64,000 nucleotides of DNA. Source: Nitrosospira multiformis. GTDB lineage: Bacteria > Pseudomonadota > Gammaproteobacteria > Burkholderiales > Nitrosomonadaceae. A program made the position numbers and the translations under genes. Shown here piece by piece: positions 35,399 to 60,497 of the stretch (position 1 is its first letter; every line of letters starts with the position of its first letter). The DNA lies in the NCBI RefSeq assembly GCF_900111585.1, contig NZ_FOHI01000003.1:62001-126000 (forward strand). The letters are read 5' to 3'. The notes beneath the pieces were generated by a model, which saw only the letters and a list, made by a program, of their open reading frames with translations, was not told the origin of the DNA and ran no database searches.

Positions 35399-35432
35399 AT
35401 TCGCACGTACAGGAACTGGTTCGGCTTGGTTG

Positions 35433-43100: not shown

Positions 43101-46100
43101 CAATGGGTCGCTGACAATACAGGCCGACACGTTGATACTGGGTGAGGGTGCCAAATCCGTCGAAGGATTCTCCCAAGTCGCTATCAGAGCGAATGAAATG
43201 GTTGGACGCGGTTCCGGCAGGGCCGATATTGCCGCCATCGAAACAAAACTGGATGTGGCAAGAATCCGCGGCGAGCAAGGCGCCACCCAGACTCTGGCTG
43301 CAGCGGGCAAACTCGATGCTTTCAGAAAGGAAGCGGATCGTGCACTCGCAGACGGAAATACGCTGGGAGCGAAGTGGATGCTCTCGGGCACCGAGGTGAT
43401 GTTCGATACGGAGGCTGATCTGCCTTCGGGACAACTTAAACTCGCGGCAACTACGGGCAATCTTGAGCTGGGTGCGAATGCGGTGGCGAATGCGGCGGGT
43501 CGCTTGGTGGCGTTCTTCGATGTAGAGCGCGCATCGCCCGGTGGCGTCATTGAACTGGCAAGTGAAGATGGCAACGTGGTGGTGCAGCCGGGGGCGCAGG
43601 TGAATGTATCTGCCGCATCCGGTGGAGACGCGGGCAAGGTGATCGTGCGCGCGGGCAATGGCACGGCGGCGATTGCCGCAGGCAGTCTGCAGGGCTCCGC
43701 CATGGCAGATACAGGCGGCAATACAGGTGGCAACACAGGTGACAAAAGAGGCAATGGTGCGGGTTTTGATCTGGATGTGGCAGCGCTGGCGGATTTCTCC
43801 ACGCTTAACACGGTTCTCAATCAGGGTGTATTCGATGGCGCAAGAACATTCCGTGTTCGTACGGGCGATGTCAGCCTCTCCGCATCCGATACGGTTAGGG
43901 CAAGAGAGATCCAGATTGCCGTGGATGATGGCAAGCTCGACCTCGCTGGGCATATCGACGTATCAGGTAAGGATGCGGGCCGCATCAATCTTTATGCAAG
44001 GAATGATGTCAACGTGCTGGTGGGCACGAAGCTCGACGCCTACTCCACCGGCAATGGAAAAAAAGGCGGTGGAGTCGAAATCGGTACCGCGGAAGGCAGG
44101 TTGAGTCTGGCTGAGGGCAGCGTGATCGATGTGCATGGCTACAATAGCGACCATGGTGGAGAGGGCGGAGAGGGTGGCAGAATCCTCCTGCGCGCACCCC
44201 GTCTGGGGAGTGGCGCCGGTAACGAAATCGCTCTGGACAATATAAACAGCAGTATCAACGGCGCTAAATCGGTGGTGATCGAGGCAGTCAAAATCTATGA
44301 TGGCATCGATGCGCTCACCGCCAGCGATGAGAGTGGAGGAAGCGGCGGCAGCGGTGTCACATTGAGTCTGGCTACTGTCAACGCCGACAATACCAGCTTT
44401 GCGTCCCACGCCGGAACAATTATGTCGCGTCTGGGCAAGACGGGCGAGAGCAGCTTTCATTTGCGTCCCGGCGTAGAGATACGTTCGACAGGCGATCTCA
44501 CGCTTGCCAATGACTGGAATCTTGGAGCCAGCCGCGCTGCGGGCGAACCCGGCATGCTCACCTTGCGGGCAGGGGGTGATCTTAAGCTGAACAGCAATCT
44601 CTCCGACGGCTTCAACGCAGCGACACCATTCAGCAGCGGAACCACCCCTGCCACGCTGCTGGCCGGAGATTCCTGGAGTTACCGGCTGATTGGAGGGGCA
44701 GATATCGGCGCCGCCGATCCCATGGCAGTCAAGACCGATGGAGGTGATGTCACGCTGGCGGCGGGCAAGCTTGTGCGCACGGGCACGGGGGATATCGGCA
44801 TTGCGGCGGGAGGGGATATCAAACTCGCCGATGGCAAATCGGTCATCTATACGAGCGGTCGCCCAGCCAATCCGGCTGATGGCTTTGTCACACCTGCAAA
44901 TGCTCAGTTCAGCCAGGACGGCGGTAATGTCAGCTTGGTAGCCTTGGGTAATATAGTCGGGACACCTTCGGCGCAGCTCTACTCCAATTGGTTGTTCCGC
45001 CAGGGCCGGTTGAATGATTCAACCGGCGCATATACGCTCCAGCCTGCCTGGTGGGTACGTTTCGATCAGTTCCAGCAAGGCGTTGGCGCCCTGGGAGGCG
45101 GTAACGTCACGCTGACTGCCGGCGGCAATATCGAGAATGTTTCGGCCAGTGCGCCGACCCAGGCGCGCATGACAACCATGAGCCCGGGTGCAGCCAAATT
45201 GTTCAAGACCGGTGGCGGCGATGTGCAAGTGGAAGCCGGAGCGGATTTACTGGGTGGACAGTATTATGCAGACCGGGGGGTTCTGGAGCTGAAGGCAGAC
45301 GGCAAGGTGGACAGCGGACAGAACGTGAATGGCAGTCCACTCTACACCATCCTGGCTGTGGGTGACGCGCAGGCGAGGGTTCAGGGGCGGGAAGATGTCA
45401 ACATCCAGACCGTATTGAATCCGCACCTGGTGGTTCAGTCATCCGGCAACAGTACGGCATTCAACATCAGAAATGTAACCAGCCCGACCTGGAGCCTGTT
45501 TTCCACCTATGGCCCGCGCAGCGGCGCGAGCCTGCAGAGCCTGTATGGCAATGTGGCGCTCCAGAATGGCGGAGGAGCAGGCGCAAATATACAGAGTGCA
45601 TATAGGGCGTCGCTCAACTTCAACATCAGTTCGGGAAGCTACAAACCGGCTCTGCTTTCCCTCCTGCCACCCAGCCTTTCCATTACCGCGTTTCGCAGCA
45701 ATATCGCGCTGAGCGCCGTGGACGACATCGTCCTGAGTCCAGCCGCCGATGGTCAGCTCACGTTGCTGGCCGCAAATTCGATCAGCATTCCAACTGTCGT
45801 ATCCATGAGTGACAGGGATCCCGCGCTGATTCCCGGCGCAGTCCGGCCAGGCAGGGAATCCAGTCAGTTTCCGAATACGGCGGTGAGCGCTGCTGACCTC
45901 GATCTTGTTCATGCTGCCGTTCCTGTTCACACGGGTGATATTCAACCCGCGCGTGTTTACGCGGTAGCCGGGGATGTCAAGGGCAATCCTTTCGAACTCT
46001 CCCTGGACCTGTCCAAGGCATTTTGGCTACGCGCCGGGCAGGACGTGCGCGATATAGGCATCCTAGCGCAGCATGCCAACCCTTCGGACGTCAGCCGGGT

Positions 46101-47391
46101 GACAGCGGGCCGGGATATCGCTTTTACCGCAGGAAACGACCGCGCAGGCCTGGCAAAAATCTGGGTCGGGGGTTTGGGGCGGCTGGAGGTAGCAGCCGGA
46201 CGCAATATTGATCTTGCTACATCCGCGGGGATCGTCAGCCGGGGAGACCTCGACAATGCTGAATTACCGGCAGGAGGCGTCGATATCGATGTTGCGGCAG
46301 GAGTGGGTGTGAAGGGAATCGATTACACCGGTACCATCGACCGCTTGATCGCCGATCTGGAAAAAACGGACGGGAGTCCGGACGATATCCTTCTGTGGCA
46401 GGCGCGCTGGCTGGTAGGCAACAACGATCTGGATGGCGCCGATGCGCTCCAGGCGGTCAGGGATGTGCGCGCTCTGGATGCGGATACCCAGCGCATCCTG
46501 GTGCGCGAGATGGTCTATTCCGCACTGCGTACCACAGGGCGCGATTTCAATAATCCGAATAGCGCCTATGCCGGAAACTATGAGCGCGGCTATGCGGCGC
46601 TGGAGCGGATATTTCCGGGTTTGCGCGAGAAAAATGAGGATGGAAGCTTCAAGAATTATCAGGGAGAAATCAACCTGTTTGCCAGTCGCATCAAGACCGA
46701 GCGCGGCGGAAATATCGAGTTCATGGTCCCAGGTGGAGGGGTGGTGGTCGGCCTCAGCAATACACCGGAAGTACTGGTCAATACGGGCAATGATGTCCTT
46801 GGCATGCTGACGGTGGCAAAAGGCAATGTGCGCGGATTTGCCCGCGACCACATTCTCGTCAATCAGTCACGCATCCTGACGGTAGGAGGTGGCGATGTCC
46901 TGCTGTGGTCGAGTGAAGGGGATATCGATGCCGGCAAAGGCAAGAAAACCGCGACCGCCGTGCCGCCGCCGGTCATCAAGGTGGATGCACAGGGTAACGT
47001 AACCCAGGAACTGCAAGGCGCCGCTTCCGGTAGCGGAATTGGCGCGCTCTCGAGCGGAGGAGTCAAGGCAGGCGACATCGATCTGATCGCCCCCAGGGGG
47101 ACGGTGAATGCGGGAGATGCCGGCATTCGCGCCAATAACCTCAATATTGCGGCACAGGTCGTGCTGGGGGCGGATAATATCGCGGTGGCAGGTACTTCCA
47201 CCGGTACCCCGGTAGCCGATGCCAGCGCGGTCACCGCCACCACCTCCGGCGCTACCCAGCAGGGGGATGACGTTTCCAAGGCAACGGCTGCCTTGTCGCA
47301 AAATCTGTCGGAAGCGGCGCGCACATCCGATGAGATGAGGAAACTCAAGCCCACCTTTATCTCGACCGAGGTAATCGGGCATGGGGAATAA
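37129..47391 (+). CDS. giant filamentous haemagglutinin-like adhesin (TpsA)
   Basis: A 3,420-residue secreted adhesin. The N-terminus has an extended signal peptide (MNRNIYRLIFNKALGMLIPV, then a charged region and LLMTGLLATTAQA cleaved at about 49). The TPS domain at about 62-300 includes NWESFNVSPGHSVQFQQ and NTNGIAFM in place of the common NPNGI. The rest is a beta-helix of repeated GG-rich strands (for example GGDVTLAAGKLV). No RTX, intein or protease domain is seen. The C-terminal 500 residues include regular TVNAGDAGIRANNLNIAAQ text seen in large haemagglutinin-family proteins (DUF3739 type). GAGGAA precedes the ATG. It probably forms a cell-surface filament used in adhesion or biofilm. 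It is the last gene of the locus. Confidence 0.95.
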   Translation: MNRNIYRLIFNKALGMLIPVAETTRCRSGKARSGTVLLMTGLLATTAQAELPVPCAGGSCGGTVPDFVTAGQANYDVHGPNAVVNQVGDKAILNWESFNVSPGHSVQFQQVESLATQNLVQGANFTTLNRVWDNDPSVIAGILSQAVGQNANVILVNTNGIAFMGSSQVNLNSFTASSLDIHDNFILNAFLTTEKAVPQFEGSGGFIKVFEGARITAGSQGRVMLIAPTVINKGIVEAPDGQVIAAAGTKVFLRSASAEPVDANVRGLLVEVDSPAGLSDFETSNTNIKDGKLDGQAVALKDTALDKLGHVTNLGELSTPRGNITMVGYAVNQEGIARATTSVIANGSVYLLAKDAAMAQDSSMRGGRATLGAGSLTEVLPDVSDQTGVLDGLTGTGLVLPSQVRVLGQDVRMERGAVINAPAGQVDFFALDNPSLLFQPGDPFRQAFDAPASNTARIHIDSGALINVAGLENVKVSTARNAVEVELRGDELKDSPGNRDGPLRSQKVYVDINRALANADSGTPTLIAKDSLQAYQARLERTVAERSTEGGAVRVNSQGEAIIAPGAVIDISAGSLSYTPSSVKTTLLMSRGVLTDIANARADVRYDGIATRYVQDFGRWNVKEVIDLGQTFNYDPGYNEGKNAGALEVMGLRAVVMQGDVQGRTIVGEVQRDKGIMPEGARLTLGSNPLANNINGLDYKHNQQIELSSEGPLLPGSFKFGDTLSSDLVNKLRLNPALLGRDKVANLEIFSNQAGEVREALRVPQGGSVHITAQGVKVEADIDAPAGSIMLHANRNDLPGRSSGPLNLVVAEGVTLSARGAWVNELRGVPAGSDEVGLVNGGRIALSAIDDLALGKNTLLDVTGGGRLKVDSQGSVIAGNGGDISLSGNAVSGLADNVRGYGIGKGGTFSVASNRIQIGGTPDSTAGAVNLDPGFFERGGFGDINLAGNESVTLSEGVKIKPTLLSLELQPDYSLRPSGSRMEDFTRLVKLDDLVREPVSLSLTAENPDERGAADVAIGVGAHIEADPGAEITLAAARSMNIQGRITAPGGSITATLDHSHSFNFNASNSLWLGKQALLDVSGKALTYLDSQRLTQGEVLSGGSVTLNAQFGYVVAEPGSHINLAGAAPVRLDIQNQAGGLGQWVGSDAGRLSVIAREGMLFEGSIMAQPGSASNRAGALDVVLGLLDVDDAQNKGFPLGERVLSLGPTGTPQTPGLAPGSIIPAGLNGKATIGAAALEAAGLDRIALKSRDVIRLENDLNLGANRPLPLKEVVLDTPRIEMAGGEAALKAEVLRLGNFDANRVDVANTPLAGAGGFKAEAQLLELAGNLTLSGMSRAEFTGAQEIRFSGISSGGSPRPAGTLSSAADLAFSGAVIAPTTYSQVSILAPDRTVAFSSNATRPIQPLSALGSLTVTAANIVQGGNIWAPFGQLTFSATDTLTFKDGSLTSVAAGPGTLAPFGVLANGRSWLYKPDAFEIPQLALPEKSVRVQAANIDMRAGAVVDLAGGGDLQAYEFSVGPGGSRDILGDTGIYAILPGYTSGFAPGDRQENTGFDRGMGDAVYLSGVSGLPAGVYTLLPAHYALLPGAYAIRLDTGVHNLLPGQAYSKQDGTQVVPGYVTDSRARDWAGTPRDAVWSGFEVLNREQVLQRSEITLTRASDFFTSSNSRPQDAGLLSMDTTGNLKLDAVFKLAAGTGGRGAAVDISAPRIAITSDTSSEAGGVDPLATRISASALNALGASSLLIGGTRSRGDTTSDGTTLLVGAEEVTLANDVNHALKGDEVILAAKDALTLKSGSAIETQGGEAASGDGSYNTAGNGALVRSASTFAPFSRSGGPDRSQGTLIGEAGSVIRSGNSITLDATRQNTFAGTPVFADRQNNPIAGNLTIGAARVNFGNAPSGSEGLTLSQGELDGLNNLNSLTLTSYSTFDLYGDVSVGGVNAEGKPTQQALNLLGAGLAGLNNSGKTATLRATNILIANPAGAAFTMGGTPGNGSLTIQADTLILGEGAKSVEGFSQVAIRANEMVGRGSGRADIAAIETKLDVARIRGEQGATQTLAAAGKLDAFRKEADRALADGNTLGAKWMLSGTEVMFDTEADLPSGQLKLAATTGNLELGANAVANAAGRLVAFFDVERASPGGVIELASEDGNVVVQPGAQVNVSAASGGDAGKVIVRAGNGTAAIAAGSLQGSAMADTGGNTGGNTGDKRGNGAGFDLDVAALADFSTLNTVLNQGVFDGARTFRVRTGDVSLSASDTVRAREIQIAVDDGKLDLAGHIDVSGKDAGRINLYARNDVNVLVGTKLDAYSTGNGKKGGGVEIGTAEGRLSLAEGSVIDVHGYNSDHGGEGGEGGRILLRAPRLGSGAGNEIALDNINSSINGAKSVVIEAVKIYDGIDALTASDESGGSGGSGVTLSLATVNADNTSFASHAGTIMSRLGKTGESSFHLRPGVEIRSTGDLTLANDWNLGASRAAGEPGMLTLRAGGDLKLNSNLSDGFNAATPFSSGTTPATLLAGDSWSYRLIGGADIGAADPMAVKTDGGDVTLAAGKLVRTGTGDIGIAAGGDIKLADGKSVIYTSGRPANPADGFVTPANAQFSQDGGNVSLVALGNIVGTPSAQLYSNWLFRQGRLNDSTGAYTLQPAWWVRFDQFQQGVGALGGGNVTLTAGGNIENVSASAPTQARMTTMSPGAAKLFKTGGGDVQVEAGADLLGGQYYADRGVLELKADGKVDSGQNVNGSPLYTILAVGDAQARVQGREDVNIQTVLNPHLVVQSSGNSTAFNIRNVTSPTWSLFSTYGPRSGASLQSLYGNVALQNGGGAGANIQSAYRASLNFNISSGSYKPALLSLLPPSLSITAFRSNIALSAVDDIVLSPAADGQLTLLAANSISIPTVVSMSDRDPALIPGAVRPGRESSQFPNTAVSAADLDLVHAAVPVHTGDIQPARVYAVAGDVKGNPFELSLDLSKAFWLRAGQDVRDIGILAQHANPSDVSRVTAGRDIAFTAGNDRAGLAKIWVGGLGRLEVAAGRNIDLATSAGIVSRGDLDNAELPAGGVDIDVAAGVGVKGIDYTGTIDRLIADLEKTDGSPDDILLWQARWLVGNNDLDGADALQAVRDVRALDADTQRILVREMVYSALRTTGRDFNNPNSAYAGNYERGYAALERIFPGLREKNEDGSFKNYQGEINLFASRIKTERGGNIEFMVPGGGVVVGLSNTPEVLVNTGNDVLGMLTVAKGNVRGFARDHILVNQSRILTVGGGDVLLWSSEGDIDAGKGKKTATAVPPPVIKVDAQGNVTQELQGAASGSGIGALSSGGVKAGDIDLIAPRGTVNAGDAGIRANNLNIAAQVVLGADNIAVAGTSTGTPVADASAVTATTSGATQQGDDVSKATAALSQNLSEAARTSDEMRKLKPTFISTEVIGHGE

Positions 47392-48013: not shown

Positions 48014-48667
48014 TTAAACCGGCTCCTTGTATTTCGCAGGGGGAACATGCTCTGGCGGCCGCGTACGGTCCGAGGGAGGAGTATATTCCGGGGGTGTGCG
48101 GTCTTCAGGAGGAATGCGATCTTCCGTACGATAGGAGGAGCGCGGCATTGCCGCAATCGCTACGTCTTTTATGCCTCCGACGACGCTGACAAGAATGTCG
48201 CGCACGCTTGTGACAGCGGTAGTGCCAATTTCGCCTATCCCTTGAGCCGCCGCATTTACCGTTGTCCTTGTGACATCGACGGCTTCCGTACCGACCGCGC
48301 CCGTCGCTTGCAGCGTATGGGATATCGTGTTACGTACCAGGTTGACCATATCAGCTTCAATTTCATCGATGCCTCTTAAGCCGCTGGCAATGCCTGTCTT
48401 TACGGTATTGCCTGCATCCTCCACTGCACGGGCGGCGTCCGAGTGATAAGGGGGCGTCGTATCGACGTACCTATCATCTCCGCGGACATACCTTTCGGAG
48501 GGGCGATAGGTTTCATCTCTGGGAGGCGTGCCCGCTTCGGTATACCTTTCTTCCTCCGCAGTGCTGTGCAAGGGTTCCTCATCTATGGGTGTTGCTATAT
48601 GCGTCCGCTTTTTTTCATCGGGACGTGGCTTTTCCCCAGGGTGCTTATCTGATTTCGGCGTATTCAT
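48014..48667 (-). CDS. hypothetical amphipathic, Pro/charge-rich protein
   Basis: A 217-residue hydrophilic protein with charged, Pro-rich ends (RPDEKKRTHIATPIDEE, then RTPPEYTPPSDRTRPP) and a central helical part (IDEIEADMVNLVRNTISHTL and TVNAAAQGIGEIGTTAVTSV, RDILVSVVGGIKDVAIA) without a true transmembrane span. The central repeats of Thr/Val-rich helices resemble phasin- or LEA-like stress proteins. AGGAG lies 8 bp before the ATG. No family is recognised. A role in stress or surface protection is a guess. Confidence 0.65.
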   Translation of the reverse strand: MNTPKSDKHPGEKPRPDEKKRTHIATPIDEEPLHSTAEEERYTEAGTPPRDETYRPSERYVRGDDRYVDTTPPYHSDAARAVEDAGNTVKTGIASGLRGIDEIEADMVNLVRNTISHTLQATGAVGTEAVDVTRTTVNAAAQGIGEIGTTAVTSVRDILVSVVGGIKDVAIAAMPRSSYRTEDRIPPEDRTPPEYTPPSDRTRPPEHVPPAKYKEPV

Positions 48668-50579: not shown

Positions 50580-52676
50580 TCAGGTGCCAATCACGCCGCC
50601 ATCATCTTTAGTGATGACCACCACGGCGGAGCGTGGCTTGGAGGGGGAACCGCCGGCCGTAGTGGGACCATTTTGACCGCTGTCGGGCCAAGTCGAGTTC
50701 TGGGTAAAATGTGTTTCCCAATCCTCCCCGGGGTGCTGGATGCCAACGAACAGGGTCTTGCCGTCCGGGGAACTTGTAACCCCGGTGACCTCGCAGTACT
50801 TCGGCGCAGTGAGGAACCTGCGCGTCTCGCCCGTGGAAGGATCCGCGCACAGCATGACATTTCCCCCGATATTGGCCCAGTCGCCGGTGGCATCACCTGC
50901 CTGGTCGGTCTGTATCCACAGGCGGCCATCCTGATCGAACCAGAGGCCGTCCGGAGCGCCGTAATCATCGCCGTTAATATTGCCTCGATGATGCGGCTGC
51001 GGGTCCAGCTTGTCACCGCATTCAACGAAAATGTCCCATTCGAAATCCAGGGCGTCGACTTTGCCCGTGTTTTCGCGCCAACGGATGATGTGACCGTAAC
51101 GGTTGTCCAGCCTGGGGTTTGCGGCATCTACGGGAGGACGCGCACTGCCGGCGGGCGTACTTCCGTAGATGCTGTTGCCGGACGGCGGGTTGCTTCCACG
51201 GCGGTTGTTGTTGGTGAGCGTCATATAGACTTCACGCGAGGCGGGGTGCGCTGCTATCCATTCCGGACGATCCATCATCGTGGCGCCTGCGCGATCCGCC
51301 GCGTGGCGCGCCTTGATCAATACTTCGGCTTGATCGGCAAAACCATTTTCCGGCGTCAGTCCATTCTGGTTCCAGATCAGTGGCAGCCACTTCCCGCCAC
51401 CATCCGCATTGAACCTTGCCACGAAAAGCGTGCCGGAATCCAATAGATCGCGGTTGGCCGCGCGGTTGCGGGGGTTATATTTGTTGGCGCAGACAAACTT
51501 GTAAAGGTACTCGTTGCGCTCATCATCACCCATATATATGACGACCGTATTATCGGGATCCACGACGCAACTGGCATTTTCGTGCTTGAAACGTCCCAGC
51601 GCAGTGCGCTTCATCGGCGTGCTCCTTGGATCCCATGGATCGATTTCCACCACCCAGCCGAAGCGATGCGGTTCATTCGGGTTAAGGTCGGCGCGGAAAC
51701 GCGCATCCATTTCGTGCCAGCGGTAACCGGATCCGCCCTTGCCGATACCATAGCGTGCTTGCCCGTTTAGAATCCGACGCTTCTGCTCCGGATCGTTTGC
51801 GCCTGCCACATCTCCGGTCTCATTGGAGAAATAGCCGTTCCAGTTTTCCTCGCATGTGAGATAAGTGCCCCAGGGGGTATGGCCGTTGGCGCAGTTGTTG
51901 AGTGTGCCGAGAACATTCATGCCGCCCGGGTCGGCGGCCGTTTTCATCAGATCATGCCCGGCGGCGGGGCCGCTCAGCTTGCAGAGGGAGTTGCCGGTAA
52001 TGCGGCGGTTGAAGGCGGAAGTACGCTTGACCTCCCACATGCCGTTCTTTTTCCATACCTCGACCACGCTGATCCCATGCGCGGCCTGCTGTGCGCGCAC
52101 CATCTCGAGAGTGATCGAGGTGGTCGCATAGCTGGATGCGGGAGTGATGTTATTGACCAGAGGAGGATCGACATACTCATGGTTCGTCACCAGCAGACCG
52201 CGGATATTGGCGACGCTAGGTGATCCGGAGGATCCCATGGGAGGGAAGGGAAACAGATGCATTCCGTCCACGTGGGCGCCGAATGTGTGCAATTGTATCA
52301 TCTCGGTCATTGCGCTCCCCGGATTCCAGTGCGGCGCCTGGGTGAGGGAGTCCCCCCAAGCGATCAGTACGCGCGCGGTATAGCCGACGGGAACGGTAAC
52401 GGCGTCATCCCCGGGTGAAAGATATAGGTTGGCAGGCACTGAATCGAAACCGATGCCGTTCACAGGCGCCGGTGCTGCGTAAGCAAACTGCACCAGACCA
52501 TCGAGCAGGGAGCCGCCGAATGCGACAGCCGTAAGGCCCAGCGAGCGTTGGAGGAAGGCCCGCCGGGAAAGCCTGCCGGCTTCGATCAGGTCATGCAGGG
52601 ATGCATTGCCGGATTCGTTGCTGCTGGTGCGATCGGGATTGTTTTTCCTATCGGGATGGAGGGTGCTACTCATCAT
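50580..52676 (-). CDS. Tat-exported PhoX-family phosphatase
   Basis: A 698-residue protein with a twin-arginine signal (GRLSRRAFLQRSLGLTAVAF, Arg38-Arg39, cleavage near AYA-APA). The body is a DUF839/PhoX beta-propeller: GLLVTNHEYVDPPL, GTYLTCEENWNGYF, GWVVEIDPWDP, CVVDPDNTVVIYMGDDERNE and DGLWFDQDGRLWIQTDQAG. PhoX enzymes are calcium- and iron-dependent phosphomonoesterases folded before Tat export, active in the periplasm or outside. AAGGAGAT lies just before two ATGs (52676, 52673); the second has better spacing. A monocistronic minus-strand gene upstream of a glycerophosphodiesterase. Confidence 0.92.
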   Translation of the reverse strand: MMSSTLHPDRKNNPDRTSSNESGNASLHDLIEAGRLSRRAFLQRSLGLTAVAFGGSLLDGLVQFAYAAPAPVNGIGFDSVPANLYLSPGDDAVTVPVGYTARVLIAWGDSLTQAPHWNPGSAMTEMIQLHTFGAHVDGMHLFPFPPMGSSGSPSVANIRGLLVTNHEYVDPPLVNNITPASSYATTSITLEMVRAQQAAHGISVVEVWKKNGMWEVKRTSAFNRRITGNSLCKLSGPAAGHDLMKTAADPGGMNVLGTLNNCANGHTPWGTYLTCEENWNGYFSNETGDVAGANDPEQKRRILNGQARYGIGKGGSGYRWHEMDARFRADLNPNEPHRFGWVVEIDPWDPRSTPMKRTALGRFKHENASCVVDPDNTVVIYMGDDERNEYLYKFVCANKYNPRNRAANRDLLDSGTLFVARFNADGGGKWLPLIWNQNGLTPENGFADQAEVLIKARHAADRAGATMMDRPEWIAAHPASREVYMTLTNNNRRGSNPPSGNSIYGSTPAGSARPPVDAANPRLDNRYGHIIRWRENTGKVDALDFEWDIFVECGDKLDPQPHHRGNINGDDYGAPDGLWFDQDGRLWIQTDQAGDATGDWANIGGNVMLCADPSTGETRRFLTAPKYCEVTGVTSSPDGKTLFVGIQHPGEDWETHFTQNSTWPDSGQNGPTTAGGSPSKPRSAVVVITKDDGGVIGT

Positions 52677-53148: not shown

Positions 53149-54474
53149 CTACTTTAGGCCCATGCAGTTGGCGTAATAGGTCACCGTGGCAGGCCAATCG
53201 CTGAAGATGCCCAGAATACCTACATCCCGGTTCAGGACGTCCAGCACTTTCATCACATCGCCTTCGCGCCTTATCGCCGAATCGAAAGTCTGGTAATAAA
53301 AGCCGTTATCGCCGTCAGCCAGTATTCCGGAGCGCTCCAGCGTCCAGGTGATGAGGTCTAGTCCTGCGGCCCTGGCCTGCATGGCGTAGCTGGACGGGAT
53401 GATATTGCCGCTCCCATCGACATCCAGCAGTGCGAATATGGGAGGGGCGACAATATTGATGCCCTCGGCTTTGTAAGCGGTCAACTGACCGGCATTGGGA
53501 AGATCAGCGACCGTATTGGCATCGTCGAGATAAACCGCCTGCCTCCCAAACTCGGGCTCCTTGGCGATCCAGTAACGGATATCGCGGATATCGAAGGACT
53601 GTGGAAAGACGTCGCGAGGTTTGACATCGGCAGCCTTGTACTCGTCGATCATCTGTTGAGCATAATGTTCCTGCGTGTAGTCGCCGACTCCGTCCCCCTC
53701 GCTGTCATAAGGCATTGCTACCTCCGCGTTCTTGAGTTCGGGTGTCATTTTTGCCCCCAGCTTGCTGAAGAGTTCGATACTCTCCCGGTGGCTGAGCAGA
53801 GTTCCACTGGTAGGGCCGGCGTACAAGTCAGTGCGCCATGCAGGTGTGCCGCCCACGTATTCCCCTACATTCCTTGCGGCAGGGTTGAAGGCGTCCATCT
53901 TGCCTTTCAGGCTCTTGAATTCATCCAGAGTGATGTCGCTCGTGCAGCAACGGGCGGAAGCTTCCTGAATCAGGTTTCCCGAAGCATCGAACTGGGCAGG
54001 TGTAAAAGGCCGCGTGCATTTTTCGGCAAGGGATGTTTCCAGAATATTCGTGGTGGTGTGCAGATCACACTGCGAATGGCGACACACCAGTTCCTTGTCC
54101 CTGGTAAATGTTACGTCGCACTCAAGAATGCCGGCGCCCATGCGAGCGGCGGCCCGATAGGACTCCGCCGTATGCTCGGGAAACTGCAATGGCGCGCCGC
54201 GATGACCGATGGAGAAGTATGTTTTCCTGAACGGGCCGGTACCGCAACGCGCGAGCTTGCTCTTGAGTTCACCGGCCTCCATATCCTCGACAAGGAAAAA
54301 GGGACGAGGGCCGAGTTGAACATTGCCGCCGGAATTATCAGGAGAAGCATCATGGAAGGGAGTTCCTTCCATGCCGTCGTTTTTTCCGCCGGCCAGGGCG
54401 GGCGCAATAATCAGCAAGACAAGGAAGAAAAATAAGATTGTCAGTACGGGATGGAAGAATGTTCGGCGGGTCAT
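53149..54474 (-). CDS. secreted glycerophosphodiester phosphodiesterase
   Basis: A 441-residue protein with a hydrophobic signal ([17 protein letters not shown], cleavage near residue 28). The GDPD catalytic residues are in place: His91-Arg92 in [14 protein letters not shown] with Glu100, Glu118 and Asp120 in [11 protein letters not shown], and His133 in CRHSQCD. It hydrolyses glycerophosphodiesters such as deacylated lipids to glycerol-3-phosphate and an alcohol. It is longer than cytoplasmic GlpQ-type enzymes, with an extended C-terminal part. It is divergent from the ExbB operon and adjacent to PhoX, so the three may serve organic-phosphorus uptake; this is inference. Confidence 0.92.
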
Positions 54475-54626: not shown

Positions 54627-54644
54627 ATGATCCGTTCGGATCAT
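54627..54644. promoter_or_regulatory. 18-bp perfect palindrome, possible operator
   Basis: ATGATCCG-TT-CGGATCAT has 8-bp perfect arms. A half-site-like copy (ggatcatgac) lies at 54579-54588. Both sit in the 220-bp divergent spacer between the GDPD gene and the ExbB operon, about 70 bp before the latter's start, where a repressor could control either. Confidence 0.5.
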
Positions 54645-54711
54645 GATTCATTACCAATGGCTGTAATCAGAGGCAGGGATAATCCCCCTGTGTTTATTGG
54701 GGTTAATTTGC

Positions 54712-56367
54712 ATGCGTTTCCTGCCGTTTCTGCTCGCCTTTGTGTTGTCGACGTGGTCTTTTTCCAGTTATGCGTGGTGGAATGAGGACTGGACAAGCCG
54801 CAAGAAAATCACGCTGACAGGCCCATCAAGCGAGGTAACGGACGTACCCGTATTAATCCGCCTGCATACAGGCAACTTCGACTTTTTCTCGGCAAGCGAT
54901 AATGGCGGTGATGTGCGGCTGGTCTCGGGAGATGACAAGACCGAGCTCAAGTTCCATTTTGAAAAATGGGATGTTGCAAACGAGTTGGCGCTCATCTGGG
55001 TGAAATTACCCAGACTCTCGGCCCAAACCGAAATTTTCCTTTACTACGGTAATGAAAATGCGACATCGGCAGCCGACCCCAAAGGGACGTACGATGCCAG
55101 CAGCGCGATCTATCATTTTGCCGAATCGCAGGGAAACCCTCAGGATAGCGGCTCCAACAACCTGCACGCACAGTCCTCTGCGCAGCAGGTGGCGGCATCA
55201 TTTTCGAATGGCGGCGCAGGGTTCGATGGCGCACAAAGCCTGATTCTCCCCCCAGTACAGGCAGCAGGAGGCTACAGCTTCAGCGTATGGATCAAGCCTG
55301 CCTCCCTCAGTGGCATCATTTATCAGTCCGGTAGCGTGAACATCTCGCTTGATGGCGGCCTGATCAGGGCGCAATCAGGGGGCGCGAGCGTTGTTTCCGA
55401 CCAGCCTTTTGCTGCCGGGCAGTGGCATCACGTCGGTTTCACGATTTCGGATGCGCTCCGCCTGTATATAGATGGCAAGGCGGCTGGCGAAGCCCGGAAT
55501 GCGGTATTGCCTTCGGGCAGCGTGATCCTGGGGGGGAGATTCAAGGGCGAGATGGACGAAGCGCAGGTGTCGGGGCTTGTGCGGGCAGCCGAATGGATTG
55601 CGGTTCAGGCTGCGCTGGGACCGGACGGCAAGCTGGTTGTGATGGGTGAAGAAGAGACCACCGAAAGTGGCTCCGAGGTCTCGCACATGGGCATCATCCT
55701 GAAATCGCTGACCGTGGATGGATGGGTTGCGATTGGTCTCCTGACGGTGATGCTGCTGATTGCGATATGGGTGATGTACAGCAAGGCGGTCTACATCAAC
55801 CGCGTGGATAAGTCCAACAACCGCTTCATGGACAAATTCCGCGAGCTGTCAACCGATCTGGCCATGATAGACAAAGCCCAGGGATTGGGAAAAGACTTCG
55901 AGCATTCCTCTCTTTATCGAATCTATCACATCGGCGCGGTTGAACTGGCGCATCGCTTCCAGGATACCGATGCCGCGCATACCGACAAGTCGTTGACACC
56001 TCAATCGCTCGACGCCATCCGTGCAAGCCTGGATGCCGGGCTGGTGGAAGAAATCCAGCGCATGAACAGGTTCATGGTGCTGCTGACCATTGCCATTTCC
56101 GGTGGCCCTTTCATTGGCCTCTTGGGAACTGTGATGGGGGTAATGATCACTTTTGCGGCCATTGCCGCGGCAGGGGACGTCAATGTCAACGCCATCGCGC
56201 CTGGCATCGCCGCCGCCCTTGCGGCAACCGTCGCTGGCATGGGTGTGGCGATTCCATCCCTCTTTGGCTACAACTATCTCGCCTCGCGTATCAAGGCCAT
56301 CGTATCCAGAATGCATATTTTCGTGGATGAGTTCATCACCAAGCTTGCCGAAAACTACAGCCGCTGA
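54712..56367 (+). CDS. DUF2341-LamG-MotA/TolQ/ExbB fusion protein
   Basis: A 551-residue protein. The signal-like segment MRFLPFLLAFVLSTWSFSSY is followed by WWNEDWTSRKKI, a DUF2341 start (VPVLIRLHTGNFDFFSASDN, ALIWVKLPRLSAQTEIFLYY) and a LamG/concanavalin-like beta-sandwich (about 135-295: GYSFSVWIKPASL, GQWHHVGFTI). A transmembrane helix at about 330-355 leads to a MotA/TolQ/ExbB domain with two helices (MVLLTIAISGGPFIGLLGTV and AIAPGIAAALAATVAGMGVA). Standard ExbB lacks the DUF2341/LamG front end, which should lie in the periplasm. It forms the proton-channel pentamer with ExbD, encoded next. ATG 54712 is chosen over TTG 54697. Confidence 0.9.
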   Translation: MRFLPFLLAFVLSTWSFSSYAWWNEDWTSRKKITLTGPSSEVTDVPVLIRLHTGNFDFFSASDNGGDVRLVSGDDKTELKFHFEKWDVANELALIWVKLPRLSAQTEIFLYYGNENATSAADPKGTYDASSAIYHFAESQGNPQDSGSNNLHAQSSAQQVAASFSNGGAGFDGAQSLILPPVQAAGGYSFSVWIKPASLSGIIYQSGSVNISLDGGLIRAQSGGASVVSDQPFAAGQWHHVGFTISDALRLYIDGKAAGEARNAVLPSGSVILGGRFKGEMDEAQVSGLVRAAEWIAVQAALGPDGKLVVMGEEETTESGSEVSHMGIILKSLTVDGWVAIGLLTVMLLIAIWVMYSKAVYINRVDKSNNRFMDKFRELSTDLAMIDKAQGLGKDFEHSSLYRIYHIGAVELAHRFQDTDAAHTDKSLTPQSLDAIRASLDAGLVEEIQRMNRFMVLLTIAISGGPFIGLLGTVMGVMITFAAIAAAGDVNVNAIAPGIAAALAATVAGMGVAIPSLFGYNYLASRIKAIVSRMHIFVDEFITKLAENYSR

Positions 56368-56376
56368 CGGATTGAC

Positions 56377-56781
56377 ATGAAGGTTCAGGAAGAAAACGAG
56401 CTTTACGACGAGATCAATGTCGTTCCCATGCTGGATCTCGCCTACGTCTTGCTGGTGATTTTCATCATCATGACAACAGCATCTGTCCAGGGGATAAAGG
56501 TCAATCTGCCCAAGGCCAGTAATTCCCCCAGTCTGGCCAAGCCGCAAACCAAGGCGATCACGATCAACGAGAGCGGGCAGATTTTTCTGGATGCCTACCC
56601 GGTAACGCTGGATGAATTGAAAACCCGGCTGAGCCAGTTGAAAGCAGTCAATCCGGAGCTGCCGGTCGTAGTCAAGGGGGATACGGTGGTGCAGTACGGC
56701 AAGGTGATGGAAGTCCTCGAATTACTCGGGCAACTGGATATAACGCAACTGGGCCTCGTCACCCAGCGCCTGGTGAAGTAA
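56377..56781 (+). CDS. exbD: ExbD/TolR-type biopolymer transport protein
   Basis: A 134-residue protein. The N-terminal transmembrane helix with its essential Asp is MLDLAYVLLVIFIIMTTAS (Asp20). A periplasmic domain follows (VNLPKASNSPSLAKPQTKAI, ITINESGQIFLDAYPVTLDE and LPVVVKGDTVVQYGKVMEVL), typical of ExbD. It is nine bases after the fusion gene. It pairs with the ExbB part to harvest the proton-motive force. Confidence 0.93.
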   Translation: MKVQEENELYDEINVVPMLDLAYVLLVIFIIMTTASVQGIKVNLPKASNSPSLAKPQTKAITINESGQIFLDAYPVTLDELKTRLSQLKAVNPELPVVVKGDTVVQYGKVMEVLELLGQLDITQLGLVTQRLVK

Positions 56782-56795
56782 TGGCATGACGGCTG

Positions 56796-57473
56796 ATGGA
56801 GGTGTCTAACCCGGATTCGCCCAATTGGCCTGGCTGGGCACGATGGGGAGTTGTTGTACTTTGCCTGGCTGTGGCGATCATGCTGGGATTATGGTTGAAG
56901 GAGCTTTTGGGAAGCGACGAGCCGCCTCCGAAGCGCTCGCTACAACAAATCACGTTGATCAAGCCCCCGCCTCCTCCCCCTCCGCCCCCGGAGCAGAAGC
57001 CGCCCGAACCTGTAGTAAAGGAAGAAGTGAAGCTGCCGGATCCTGCCCCCGAACCCATGGAGAAAGCGGATGAGCCGCCGCCCGGCCCAGACTTGGGTGT
57101 CGATGCCGAAGGGACGGGCGACGGCGATGGATTCGGCCTTGTCGGGAAAAAAGGCGGCGCCGATCTGATAGGCGGCGCCAGGGGGAATCCTTGGGCCTGG
57201 TATGACGCAATAGTAAACGAGGCGGTGAATTCCGCCTTTCAGGATGCGCTATCGCGGGAACAGGCGCTCAAGGACAAGACGTACCGGGTAGTAGTGAAAG
57301 TGTGGATCGATACCCATGGGAAAGTGGCACGGGTTGCGCTGGTTGACAAGACCGGCAACCCCCGGGTTGATGAATTGCTGGAAGATGTACTGCAGAGCTT
57401 GAAGGCGTTACGCGAAGGTCCGCCGGCAGACATGCCGCAGCCGCTAAAAATACGTGTGACCTCGCGCGCCTGA
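56796..57473 (+). CDS. TonB-like energy transducer
   Basis: A 225-residue protein with an N-terminal transmembrane helix at about 17-36 (RWGVVVLCLAVAIMLGLWLK), a Pro-rich periplasm-spanning stretch (nine prolines at 58-66, then EQKPPEPVVKEEVKLPDPAP), and a C-terminal TonB-like domain (TYRVVVKVWIDTHGKVARVA, DKTGNPRVDELLEDVLQSL). It should carry energy from ExbB-ExbD to an outer-membrane partner. It starts 14 bp after exbD with a weak ribosome-binding site. The TonB-box receptor is not obvious in the window; the next gene encodes a porin. Confidence 0.88.
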   Translation: MEVSNPDSPNWPGWARWGVVVLCLAVAIMLGLWLKELLGSDEPPPKRSLQQITLIKPPPPPPPPPEQKPPEPVVKEEVKLPDPAPEPMEKADEPPPGPDLGVDAEGTGDGDGFGLVGKKGGADLIGGARGNPWAWYDAIVNEAVNSAFQDALSREQALKDKTYRVVVKVWIDTHGKVARVALVDKTGNPRVDELLEDVLQSLKALREGPPADMPQPLKIRVTSRA

Positions 57474-57488
57474 TGTCCGGAGAATGAA

Positions 57489-59174
57489 ATGAGAATCCCT
57501 GCGATGCTCGCAGGCGCGGTCATGGCCCTAGCGGCCATGGGCAGCGTCGACGCAAAAACCGAAGAGCACGAAAAGATAGAAGTCCTGTATGAGACTACCC
57601 TGAACCTGATTCATCTCCTGGTGGAGCAGGGCGTCATCAAGCAGGAGGTCGCTGATGAAATGATCAGGAAGGCGGAGCAGAAAGCTAAAGCCTCCCAGCA
57701 GCAAGCACGGGAACAGAGTGGGCAGCCCCAGGCCGGGGAGCCGAAAAAGGGTGAGGTACGGGTGACTTACGTTCCCGAGCACATCAAGAAAGAGATTCGT
57801 GATCAGTTGCGCGAGGAAGTGGTGGGCCAGGCCAAGCAGGAACGCTGGGGCAATGTAAATGCGACTCCTGAATGGCTGGATCGCTTTACCCTGGAAGGGG
57901 ATATACGGCTGCGCGAGCAGGCAGATTTCTTCGGCGACCGCAATGCGCCGGCAGCCAATTTCCAAGCGATCGGCCAGCAAATCGACAACACGACGAAAGA
58001 CAGTCATCACCGCGAGCGCATCCGCATGCGTCTCGGGATTAATGCCAACGTCACGCGCGGAGTAGATCTGGGGCTTCGCTTGACCACCGGTAATGTCAAC
58101 GGGCCGGCCGTCACGGGGGACTTGATGGGCGGGTCCCCCACCTCTACCTTGCAGACGCTGGGCACTTACAACAGTAAATTCAGCTTCGTGCTGGATCAGG
58201 CTTATCTCAAGCTTTCCCCCTGGGACTGGCTGACTGTCAGCGGAGGGCGTTTTCCCAATCCTTTCTTCGTGGGCACGGTTGGCAACATATATACCGGCAC
58301 AATCGGAAAGGCGCCCCACACCATACCCACCGCGGGCGTGGTGCATACGGACCTGTTGTGGGACGTGGACGTGAACTTCGAGGGGCTCGCGGTCAATCTC
58401 CATCCCTGGAAGAAGCAGGAGCGAACGATCAAGCCATTTCTCAATGCGGGCATATTCCCATTGCAAAAAATAAATCAAAGCGAGACGGTCAAAGCCAAGG
58501 ATAAGTGGTTTTATGGCGCCCAGGCCGGAGTAGAGTGGGCTCCGGAAGGTGCCGACACCAAAATCCGGCTGGGGGCAGCCTATTATGATTTTGAAAATAT
58601 CAGTGGTGTTCGCAATCCCAACTTCGGCGATACCCTGTTCAACCAGACCGCTCCGTTATTCCGTCAAAAAGGCAACAGTCTTTTCAACATCGACAACGAT
58701 GGCGATCCGACCACGAACTTATGGGCCCTGGCTTCTGATTACAAGATCGCAAACGCGACCATGGTGGCGGACTACTCCAGATTCAAGCCAATTCATGTAA
58801 TCGGAACGCTGGATTATGCGCGTAATGTGGGGTATGACCAGGACAGGATTCTTGCCCGCACCGGCCAGAATATCAAGCCGGAAATCAATGCATATCAGGC
58901 CCGCCTCACTGTTGGTTATCCGGTTATTTCCGAGCGGCATCAGTGGCAGGTTCTCGGGTTTTACCGCCGGTCGGAGCGGGATTCGATGCTGGATGCCTTT
59001 ACCGATTCCAATTACCTCCTTGGCGGCACCAATCACAAGGGTTACACCATTCAGGGTTTCTATGGCGTAGCCCATAATACCTGGGTGGGACTTCGCTATA
59101 TGTCATACGACAATATCAGCGGATTGCCGCTGTCGATCGATTCCGTCAATCTGGATCTGAACGCCAGATTCTGA
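57489..59174 (+). CDS. putative outer-membrane porin with N-terminal coiled coil
   Basis: A 561-residue protein with a signal peptide (MRIPAMLAGAVMALAAMGSV, cleavage near VDA-KTE). A periplasmic helical region (about 30-110, with VEQGVIKQEVADEMIRKAEQ) leads into a beta-barrel (FTLEGDIRLREQADFFGDRN, RIRMRLGINANVTRGVDLGL, SFVLDQAYLKLSPWDWLTVS). The last strand, DSVNLDLNARF, ends in Phe as expected. This is the putative-porin (Porin_5-like) family. The N-terminal coil could be anchored to peptidoglycan or to the TonB-like protein. It starts 15 bp after the TonB-like gene. It is the likely outer-membrane gate of this module. Confidence 0.87.
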   Translation: MRIPAMLAGAVMALAAMGSVDAKTEEHEKIEVLYETTLNLIHLLVEQGVIKQEVADEMIRKAEQKAKASQQQAREQSGQPQAGEPKKGEVRVTYVPEHIKKEIRDQLREEVVGQAKQERWGNVNATPEWLDRFTLEGDIRLREQADFFGDRNAPAANFQAIGQQIDNTTKDSHHRERIRMRLGINANVTRGVDLGLRLTTGNVNGPAVTGDLMGGSPTSTLQTLGTYNSKFSFVLDQAYLKLSPWDWLTVSGGRFPNPFFVGTVGNIYTGTIGKAPHTIPTAGVVHTDLLWDVDVNFEGLAVNLHPWKKQERTIKPFLNAGIFPLQKINQSETVKAKDKWFYGAQAGVEWAPEGADTKIRLGAAYYDFENISGVRNPNFGDTLFNQTAPLFRQKGNSLFNIDNDGDPTTNLWALASDYKIANATMVADYSRFKPIHVIGTLDYARNVGYDQDRILARTGQNIKPEINAYQARLTVGYPVISERHQWQVLGFYRRSERDSMLDAFTDSNYLLGGTNHKGYTIQGFYGVAHNTWVGLRYMSYDNISGLPLSIDSVNLDLNARF

Positions 59175-59187
59175 AGGAAAGGATATC

Positions 59188-59874
59188 ATGAGCCCCCGGA
59201 AAAAAAAGATTCTGCCGCTCCTGGCCCGCGGGATGATCGTTGCTCTGTTGGCAGCCTCCTGGCCCTCCGCCAGCGCAGCGGGCACTGTCACCGACAGGAG
59301 TGCTAAGAAAGAGCGACAGGTGCTGCGGCGCATGCAACAGCAGCTGAACGAAATGCAACAGCAGAAATCGACACTCGATCAGGAGAAAACGGCGCTGGAA
59401 GAAACGCTGAAGAATGCCAGTAAGGAAACGGAGTCTCATAAAAAGTCTGCGGCCAGTGCCGCAGCCAAGGCATCGCGGCTCGAAAAGGATATTGAAGCGG
59501 CAAGCCGGGAAAAAGCGGAATTGGGCGTCCAACTCAAGGAAGCGCAGAAACAGAACCAGGAGCTCGACCTCCAACGCAAACAGCTGGAACAGGATCTGAA
59601 GGTCAAGGCAGCGGCGCTGGCAAAGGAGGGGGAACAAAGAAACCTGTGTGAAACGAATAACGGCGAGCTCTATCGCATCGGGCGCGAACTGGTGGATTGG
59701 TATGCCAGCAAGGGGCCTTTGAACGCGATTCTGGAGGCCGAACCGTTCACCGGGATGAAGAGCGTCGAAATGGAAAATCTGCTCGAAAATTATCGCGAAA
59801 AGCTTGAAACTCGGCATCTGGAGCCTTCCATCAGTCGCGAAATCCGCGAGATCCACGGGCGTCTGCTACCATAG
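59188..59874 (+). CDS. coiled-coil periplasmic protein of the ExbB module
   Basis: A 228-residue protein with a signal-like N-terminus (LLARGMIVALLAASWPSASA), then a long coiled coil from about 38 to 155 (heptad-rich: QVLRRMQQQLNEMQQQKSTL, ASRLEKDIEAASREKAELGV). A short globular C-terminus (NNGELYRIGRELVDWYASKG, MENLLENYREKLE) follows. It begins 13 bp after the porin gene and ends the module. It may span the periplasm as a spacer or linker. The family is not recognised. Confidence 0.78.
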   Translation: MSPRKKKILPLLARGMIVALLAASWPSASAAGTVTDRSAKKERQVLRRMQQQLNEMQQQKSTLDQEKTALEETLKNASKETESHKKSAASAAAKASRLEKDIEAASREKAELGVQLKEAQKQNQELDLQRKQLEQDLKVKAAALAKEGEQRNLCETNNGELYRIGRELVDWYASKGPLNAILEAEPFTGMKSVEMENLLENYREKLETRHLEPSISREIREIHGRLLP

Positions 59875-60029: not shown

Positions 60030-60497
60030 ATGACCTCAACAGCAGGCAAGCAGAATTCAAGAAAACAGAATTCAAAAAAACCTGGCCGGACAGCAAAGGA
60101 AGCGGCAATATTACAAAATGACCCGCAGGCTTCCGTCCTGACGGAGGCGCCAGCGGAAGGTGTCAGACCTCGCAGGTCGAGGGCATCGGACAAGACCGGT
60201 CCGCACAGCCCGAAAGAAGACAAACCGCGGAAGCGCGTAGTGGAGGCAAGATCAGAGAAGGAAATGGACACGAATGCGGAGGAGTTTTCCAATACCGCGA
60301 CACCGAAGAAAAATAAACGGATACGCGACAGTTATTCTATCCCTGAGAGCGAGCACAAACAGATTTCCATACTTAAGAAACGTTGTCTGGATCAGGGCCG
60401 GCGGGCGAAGAAGAGCCAGATTTTGCGGGCTGGCATTCTCGTGCTGGCGCAAATGGACGACACCGAACTTCTCGCTGTCATGGAACGGATCAGGTGA
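60030..60497 (+). CDS. basic protein with a possible ribbon-helix-helix C-terminus
   Basis: A 155-residue protein after AGGAG. The first 95 residues are Lys/Arg/Ser/Pro-rich and disordered. The C-terminus, RIRDSYSIPESEHKQISILK then KRCLDQGRRAKKSQILRAGI, looks like a ribbon-helix-helix domain (beta strand SYSIP, then helix, then SQILRAGILVL). It could be a DNA-binding regulator. No target is identified. It is 155 bp after the ExbB module. Confidence 0.65.
   Translation: MTSTAGKQNSRKQNSKKPGRTAKEAAILQNDPQASVLTEAPAEGVRPRRSRASDKTGPHSPKEDKPRKRVVEARSEKEMDTNAEEFSNTATPKKNKRIRDSYSIPESEHKQISILKKRCLDQGRRAKKSQILRAGILVLAQMDDTELLAVMERIR

Follow-up and report, generated by a model that had tools for sequence, protein, structure and literature searches.

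A Ton-type motor operon in Nitrosospira multiformis is the motor half of a conserved eight-part module with two-partner secretion and a PstS-type protein

To understand an operon for a Ton-type motor whose ExbB subunit is fused to DUF2341 and a LamG-like domain, we analysed a 64,000-nucleotide stretch of the Nitrosospira multiformis genome (contig NZ_FOHI01000003.1, positions 62,001–126,000; the whole stretch is called the window here). The five genes of this operon are the motor half of a larger conserved module of eight parts, namely a PstS-type periplasmic-binding-family protein, the two-partner secretion (TPS) transporter TpsB, the exoprotein TpsA (about 3,450 aa), the ExbB fusion, ExbD, TonB, a porin with 16 predicted strands and a coiled-coil protein. 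The evidence for the module itself is strong. As to its role, we see about an even chance that the dedicated Ton motor drives the stalked porin, the tail of TpsA or both for phosphorus acquisition. A published loose end beside pdtAB of Pseudomonas aeruginosa thereby becomes a defined and widely distributed module with testable peptides, and DUF3739, DUF2341-ExbB and Porin_5 gain a shared context. For ammonia oxidisers and other environmental bacteria, the module directs attention to phosphorus acquisition.

The five-gene operon

All five genes lie on the plus strand. The first encodes the ExbB fusion (54712–56367 from an ATG, with an alternative TTG start at 54697), which runs from a signal peptide through DUF2341 (54901–55149, residues 69–151; Pfam E 2.4e-16) and a LamG-like sandwich (55246–55602, residues 184–302; Pfam Laminin_G_3, E 8.7e-13) to transmembrane (TM) helices and an ExbB/TolQ channel core (55999–56313, residues 435–539; Pfam MotA_ExbB, E 7.2e-27). 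All three Pfam domains are inside one open reading frame (ORF). ExbD with a TM Asp20 follows (56377–56781; Pfam E 2.2e-27), then a TonB-like transducer with a TM helix, a Pro-rich spacer and a TonB_2 C-terminal domain (56796–57473; Pfam E 1.5e-6), a Porin_5 protein with N-terminal helices, a predicted 16-strand beta-barrel and a terminal Phe (57489–59174; Pfam E 1.7e-147), and a family-less coiled-coil protein with a conserved C-terminal region and a signal peptide recognised by eye (59188–59874). From 5' to 3' the intergenic gaps are 9, 14, 15 and 13 bp. An initial annotation, made from the letters of the DNA, had described five plus-strand genes in this order with gaps of 9–15 bp, the first of them a signal peptide-DUF2341-LamG-ExbB fusion, and all of this held when Pfam was applied.

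The initial annotation had also allowed that the fusion might be an artefact of two separate proteins and that the five genes might rarely be neighbours elsewhere. We compared the best 80 of 545 confirmed relatives from a scan of genome contigs (the named loci, with L numbers), which come from Nitrosospira, Thiobacillus, Burkholderiales, Rhodocyclaceae, Methylophilus and others. A single frame of 552–752 aa spans all three domain regions in each of the 78 named loci with a recognised fusion, none being recognised in L080 and L112, and Pfam found the three domains in 4/4 further fusions. Of the 60 named loci that extend 5.5 kb or more past the fusion on the downstream side, 59 keep the order fusion, ExbD, TonB, Porin_5, coiled coil; in the sole exception (L072) the porin is upstream. 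Both concerns are answered by these counts. A second ExbD was recognised in 14 named loci. The added front on ExbB, which had been put forward as a departure from normal ExbB proteins, is present as described, and extra domains on ExbB-type subunits are already in print: A subunits with a DUF2341 appendage have been noted in generic ion transporter (GIT) complexes, with their function left open (mBio 2025, PMC12505986). GIT complexes carry DUF2341 or DUF3450 appendages, and the words LamG, Porin_5 and phosphate do not appear in the main text of that paper.

The motor retains the residues of an energiser. The Thr, Gly, Pro and Lys of the ExbB core are invariant in 79/79 aligned sequences, with Thr464, Thr478 and Thr511 (alignment numbering) kept in 79/79, and ExbD Asp20 is present in 76/76. 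Together with the TonB C-terminal domain, these make up an ExbB-ExbD-TonB set. A His in or near the TM helix of TonB is known to be important in E. coli; 66 of 72 relatives of the window TonB have none in or near the predicted helix. TonB gave three matches among PDB sequences, all with E of 0.32 or worse. In profile searches the ExbB part matches both TolQ and ExbB structures, and its core is nearest to the TolQ model, yet it scores 115 bits against a TolQ cut-off of 221 bits.

The linked outer-membrane protein differs from the usual partner of such a motor. A TonB-dependent transporter is a large plugged barrel of 22 strands with a plug domain. By contrast, the window protein belongs to Porin_5, matches no plug family and is predicted to have 16 strands. 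Its AlphaFold2 (AF2) model (mean pLDDT 80.9) places helices at residues 26–46, 52–76 and 97–117 before the barrel strands. Residues 77–96 have no predicted secondary structure, and pLDDT falls below 50 at 77–87. Between two of the helices lies a near-invariant peptide, VRVTYVPE (57756–57779 on the plus strand, residues 90–97). Residues 89–97 (VRVxYVPE) carry 3.50 bits per column compared with 2.60 in the barrel, and Arg91 occurs in 63/63 aligned sequences (62 of the 84 relatives found entered the alignment). A search of PDB sequences with the porin returned 0 matches. The closest solved fold is that of OmpM1 from Veillonella parvula (8byt; E 2.8e-16, TM-score 0.74 by target and 0.43 by query length), which is entitled an outer-membrane attachment porin and is 14% identical to the window porin; general porins and AlgE come next.

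The coiled-coil protein has no family above curated cut-offs in family profile searches, and PHROGs gave one weak endolysin match (0.003). Its conserved residues (n=63) are C154 (61), N158 (62), L161 (63), E185 (60), P186 (61), V193 (60) and N197 (59). The C-terminal region, with a single Cys (61/63) and an EPF motif, is possibly a new domain. In one relative, L018 (1450–3603), the coiled-coil gene is adjoined by genes for an ankyrin-repeat protein and for a LapG-type protein (Peptidase_C93). LapG cleaves surface adhesins.

Co-occurrence with a DUF3739 exoprotein

Upstream of the operon the window holds a two-partner secretion pair, also on the plus strand. TpsB (35430–37001) has POTRA_2 and ShlB barrel domains (Pfam 9.3e-15 and 3.1e-14). 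TpsA (37129–47391) is a 3,420-aa exoprotein with an ESPR signal, a TPS domain and a C-terminal DUF3739 in a predicted beta-helix region (46888–47214, residues 3254–3362; Pfam 1.7e-38), the sole DUF3739 match in the genome. The 3' end of tpsA is about 7 kb upstream of the fusion, with a 217-aa ORF and genes for PhoX-type and GDPD-type enzymes between. This linkage recurs: of the 66 named loci whose upstream flank reaches 9 kb or more, 59 encode a same-strand DUF3739 TpsA upstream, no more than 7.5 kb away. Five of the seven remaining genomes carry DUF3739 at another place or outside the flank that was fetched. In Methyloversatilis universalis (L103), too, DUF3739 lies outside that flank; Methylophilus methylotrophus (L113) is another carrier of the module. 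These linkage counts are for loci with flanks of sufficient length and a recognised fusion (short-flank loci, L080 and L112 are omitted). The five genes described by the initial annotation are real, and its picture was incomplete: TpsB and TpsA, the PstS-type protein and the PhoX and GDPD neighbours had been missed.

We also asked which genomes carry the parts. In 276 class-wide genomes (G numbers), DUF3739 scored over its cut-off in 18, and full-length Porin_5 (at least 491 bits) was found in the same 18; 20 further genomes had partial Porin_5 matches only, of at most 118.5 bits. DUF2341 occurred in 23 genomes, including all 18, and in 17 of these 18 (window included) the complete fusion could be read. 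In the other one, G126, the only DUF2341 match is in a different, longer frame and the ExbD gene is at a contig end. G237 has a sub-cut-off DUF3739 match that contains a stop. TPS domains were found in 91 genomes, including all 18, and none of the 73 further TPS genomes has DUF3739 over cut-off or full-length Porin_5. Identical sets of 18 would arise by chance with a probability of 10^-27.9 if draws were independent, a figure that shared ancestry makes only indicative. The 18 genomes span 15 families (by handle), and congeners without the markers exist (G191 beside G059 and G286; G110 beside G313). In a separate set of 41 related genomes, an intact fusion and an intact DUF3739 occurred together in 18 genomes, neither without the other, and in equal copy number, with two copies of each in G011, G014, G017 and G021. 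Both are broken in G003, G008 has DUF3739 pieces only and 21 genomes have neither.

Decayed copies of the module were seen in two of these genomes. G003 (L025, L150) has pieces of the fusion, coiled coil and DUF3739, with ExbD, TonB and porin not found there, and G008 (L149) has TpsA and PstS-type pieces near a full-length PhoX.

These distributions bear on two simpler explanations. One is that the operon, like any ordinary energiser, serves TonB-dependent receptors encoded at other sites of the genome, its extra domains being incidental. Conservation of the ExbB and ExbD core residues fits this, and it is nonetheless very improbable because the host genome holds four more ExbB/TolQ-type matches, the linked outer-membrane protein is predicted to be a 16-strand barrel without a plug, and the operon comes and goes with DUF3739. 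The other is a general additional Ton/Tol-like envelope system, acting in outer-membrane strength or shape or in polysaccharide export and linked to TPS and phosphate by shared regulation only. In several relatives the operon is part of, or runs on into, exopolysaccharide export clusters with Poly_export/SLBB, Wzz and ParA-like proteins (L077, L095, L061, L079, L115), the ExbB core is closest to TolQ, and helices precede the porin barrel, all of which speak for such a system. We consider it improbable, given the co-occurrence and joint loss with DUF3739, the score far under the TolQ cut-off and the lack of any Pfam match to Pal or TolB in the eight proteins of the operon and its surroundings that were scanned. 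A device working on the cell wall, one of the roles suggested by the initial annotation, was dropped: no wall-linked gene or domain was found among the proteins scanned, and nothing else pointed there. Its broader proposal, a dedicated proton-driven envelope device that has a TonB and a porin to itself and whose operon encodes no classical receptor, is supported.

TpsA is of near-constant length. It aligned end to end with 22 relatives (23 sequences of 3,368–3,563 aa), and its mean identity to 19 more distant relatives was 24–52% per 100 residues. Of the 18 module genomes, 17 have TpsA frames of 3,399–3,593 aa, and the frame of G283 is 4,193 aa long. As a comparison, TPS-protein frames listed from the same class sample range from 178 to 29,206 aa, of which the short ones may be contig-end cuts. 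For the last 420 residues of TpsA, AF2 predicts a beta-helix with an inserted helical region at 66–161 (mean pLDDT 86.3), and no PDB fold matched the DUF3739-region model at E<=0.001. In the literature searched, DUF3739 appears in no paper, and DUF2341 together with ExbB in two. The protein ends in a conserved tail, PTFISTEVIGHGE (47350–47388, plus strand), which follows a variable Ala-rich linker; linker and tail are modelled at pLDDT of about 44–63, with a low-confidence helix at 380–404. Across relatives the tail has the pattern P-[ST]-F-[IL]-[TS]-V-[ED]-V-[LI]-G-F-G-[DE] and carries 2.85 bits per column compared with 1.77 in the linker. This is from a 66-row alignment that includes 65 of 82 listed relatives, the 82 being left from 89 frames after six were removed by a skip list and one by length. 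The tail is well but not uniquely conserved (rank 74 of 409 windows). A strict tail pattern was fitted by 42 of 91 tails, three of which were unusable (L060 masked, L152 and L153 in the wrong frame).

A constant length and a conserved end could mean that the motor acts on the fibre. TonB or the DUF2341-LamG front would grip a periplasmic tail of TpsA, and proton-driven force would finish, hold, retract or release the fibre; porin and coiled coil would be anchors and the PstS-type protein a co-regulated passenger. This explanation accounts for the tail, whose conserved peptide follows a variable linker and would be the last part of TpsA to leave the cell, and for the near-constant length of TpsA when other TPS frames vary so broadly. 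It also agrees with DUF3739 going with the motor while other TPS genomes lack both, and with the best fold match of the porin being an entitled attachment porin. Even so, we regard it as rather unlikely. It leaves the near-constant PstS-type partner unexplained, and two genomes (G317, G321) retain the motor with no DUF3739 found; at the G321 locus (L114) a 1,661-aa protein with a TPS domain stands in its place, lacking DUF3739 and, by eye, the tail peptide. TPS secretion is not generally known to depend on a proton-driven partner, which also counts against this explanation.

Phosphorus acquisition as a candidate role

One part that points to phosphorus is the PstS-type protein, a 498-aa product with a signal peptide by eye, encoded directly upstream of tpsB (33830–35326, plus strand). 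It carries a phosphate-loop signature, RVPTSGT, at residues 321–327. An iterated profile grouped it with proteins that match PBP_like_2 and gave 15 family frames in the loci. An earlier profile placed the family next to TpsB/TpsA in all but one of 14 stretches that had been fetched as a test; the remaining one (L171) stops about 1 kb beyond TpsB. A broader profile, A5, picked up the family in 17 module genomes, all except G283, and in 2 of 258 others, both under 20 bits. A5 was built partly from the genomes found (12 of the 17 gave rows), so that the independent finds are G048, G073, G126, G173 and G286, and in many genomes only five first-look candidates were scored. In the 18th module genome, G283, two proteins upstream of TpsA pass PBP_like_2. 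Against PDB sequences A5 matched seven, with E from 6e-6 to 0.065, of which five are named phosphate-transport or PstS. The first family profile, A2, had found no periplasmic-binding protein. R-x-x-x-S-G-T is present in 16/16 aligned members and lies over the PstS loops of solved structures, such as RRADGSGT. In E. coli PstS, a loop of this type holds phosphate. The module family shares profile similarity and loop residues with known PstS proteins, and differs from them in being divergent, mostly 430–610 aa long (391 in G283) and adjacent to TpsB/TpsA.

A second line of evidence comes from P. aeruginosa, where, by published annotation, the genes of PA0690–PA0701 match in order (pdtA, phdA, pdtB, exbB2, exbD2, tonB4, PA0696, PA0697). 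The published accounts describe PA0696 as a putative porin, PA0698 as YbjN, PA0699 as a PPIase and PA0701 as LysR, and place the operon in the PUMA3/VreI regulon (PMC7035377, PMC4971064, PMC2729926). The phdA promoter serves phdA, pdtB, exbB2D2, tonB4 and PA0696–PA0701 and requires PhoB and sigma-VreI at low phosphate (PMC4971064). Under low phosphate the log2 fold change is 5.92 for PA0696 and 5.97 for PdtA (PMC9769906). The Ton system beside pdtAB is called uncharacterised (PMC7035377), and linkage of PUMA3, TPS, ExbBD and PA0696 homologues was noted in six other species or strains (PMC2729926). The window has the Pdt-type arrangement, with TpsA and TpsB linked to exbB-exbD-tonB-porin-coiled coil in order. 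It differs in that TpsB precedes TpsA, that PhoX and GDPD genes stand where P. aeruginosa has lapA and hxc genes, and that no YbjN, PPIase or LysR was found among the proteins scanned beside the operon. A plasmid operon of Klebsiella quasipneumoniae (L152) has the P. aeruginosa gene order minus phdA, and its ExbB is a DUF2341-LamG fusion. Among the literature matches listed, judged by titles and the beginnings of abstracts, the module is described nowhere beyond the P. aeruginosa papers.

Phosphorus acquisition accounts for the PstS-type partner, for the phosphate control in P. aeruginosa and for the PhoX and GDPD neighbours; phosphate or some phosphorus compound would be the most probable substrate. 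We tentatively propose a specific form of it, uptake powered by a Ton motor through a barrel without a plug. TpsB would secrete TpsA, which would remain at the surface and gather the substrate. ExbB and ExbD would move TonB using proton motive force, and TonB would engage the stalked porin through VRVxYVPE, the C-terminal peptide of TpsA or both, these two peptides being candidates for strand pairing with TonB. Engagement would drive entry of the gathered substrate, which the PstS-type protein would then capture in the periplasm. The HxuCBA haem system of Haemophilus influenzae likewise combines a secreted surface protein with Ton-driven outer-membrane uptake (PMC5422565). That system consists of TpsA, TpsB and a TonB-dependent transporter, whereas the module has a Porin_5 barrel, a dedicated motor and a linked PstS-type protein. 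Acquisition and handling of the fibre are mutually compatible, and both could apply. If the proposals are correct, plugged receptors are not all that TonB-type motors power, one branch of two-partner secretion is proton-driven, and plug-free Ton uptake is a distinct class of energised outer-membrane transport in alpha-, beta- and gammaproteobacteria.

Several observations weigh against phosphorus acquisition. In P. aeruginosa, single insertion mutants of tpsA, tpsB, tonB and PA0696 kept wild-type virulence towards zebrafish (PMC2729926), and the accessible portions of the literature contained no measurement of transport, phosphate binding or TonB contact. Since the porin has no plug, a use of energy there is not evident, and VRVxYVPE and the TpsA tail resemble TonB boxes only loosely. 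The window PstS-type protein has no Pfam or NCBIfam match, and its loop has Thr in place of Gly. Only 3 of 10 family members scanned pass the Pfam PBP_like_2 cut-off (L151, L153, L172); two fall below it and five, including the window copy, have no match. NCBIfam PstS matches to the family are below cut-off or absent. In the window promoters no Pho box stood out: the highest-scoring intergenic site reaches 10.75, which is within background, 30 sites in the window scoring at least 10.5. The exopolysaccharide neighbours of some relatives and the two genomes that keep the operon with no DUF3739 found belong here as well. The Pho-box result and the exopolysaccharide neighbours count equally against the fibre-handling explanation.

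In a separate NCBIfam scan of ten candidate neighbours, the only PstS matches were two weak ones (0.0043 and 0.042). Three of the ten (L077, L095, L129) were rejected as members of the PstS-type family by the iterated profile. PHROGs gave no match for the PstS-type protein.

Promoter region and neighbouring genes

The divergent promoter region upstream of the fusion contains the perfect palindrome reported in the initial annotation, ATGATCCG-TT-CGGATCAT (54627–54644), a candidate regulator site. Within the genus the dyad is imperfectly conserved, with arms of at least 7 in only 4 of 11 aligned promoters (window, L041, L043, L027). Beside it, two elements separated by about 10 bp, CTGT[AC]A[TC]C and GATAAT, are conserved across the 11 genus promoters (window 54645–54700).

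Divergent from the operon, on the minus strand, is a GDPD-type glycerophosphodiester phosphodiesterase gene (53149–54474; Pfam 9.7e-19), and beyond it, on the same strand, a PhoX-type alkaline phosphatase gene (50580–52676; Pfam 1.1e-172). In Thiobacillus denitrificans (L050, 7170–9329) a 5'-nucleotidase-type protein, also related to phosphorus, is encoded between TpsA and the fusion, with relatives in two more loci. The 217-aa ORF between TpsA and PhoX (48014–48667, minus strand) has no Pfam match; two genus genomes have ORFs that resemble it in size and position (L142, 14511–15182; L150, 13662–14315). After the operon comes a 155-aa ORF (60030–60497), also without a Pfam match and with relatives in some loci, and downstream of this are trpG, trpD and trpC, named by eye.

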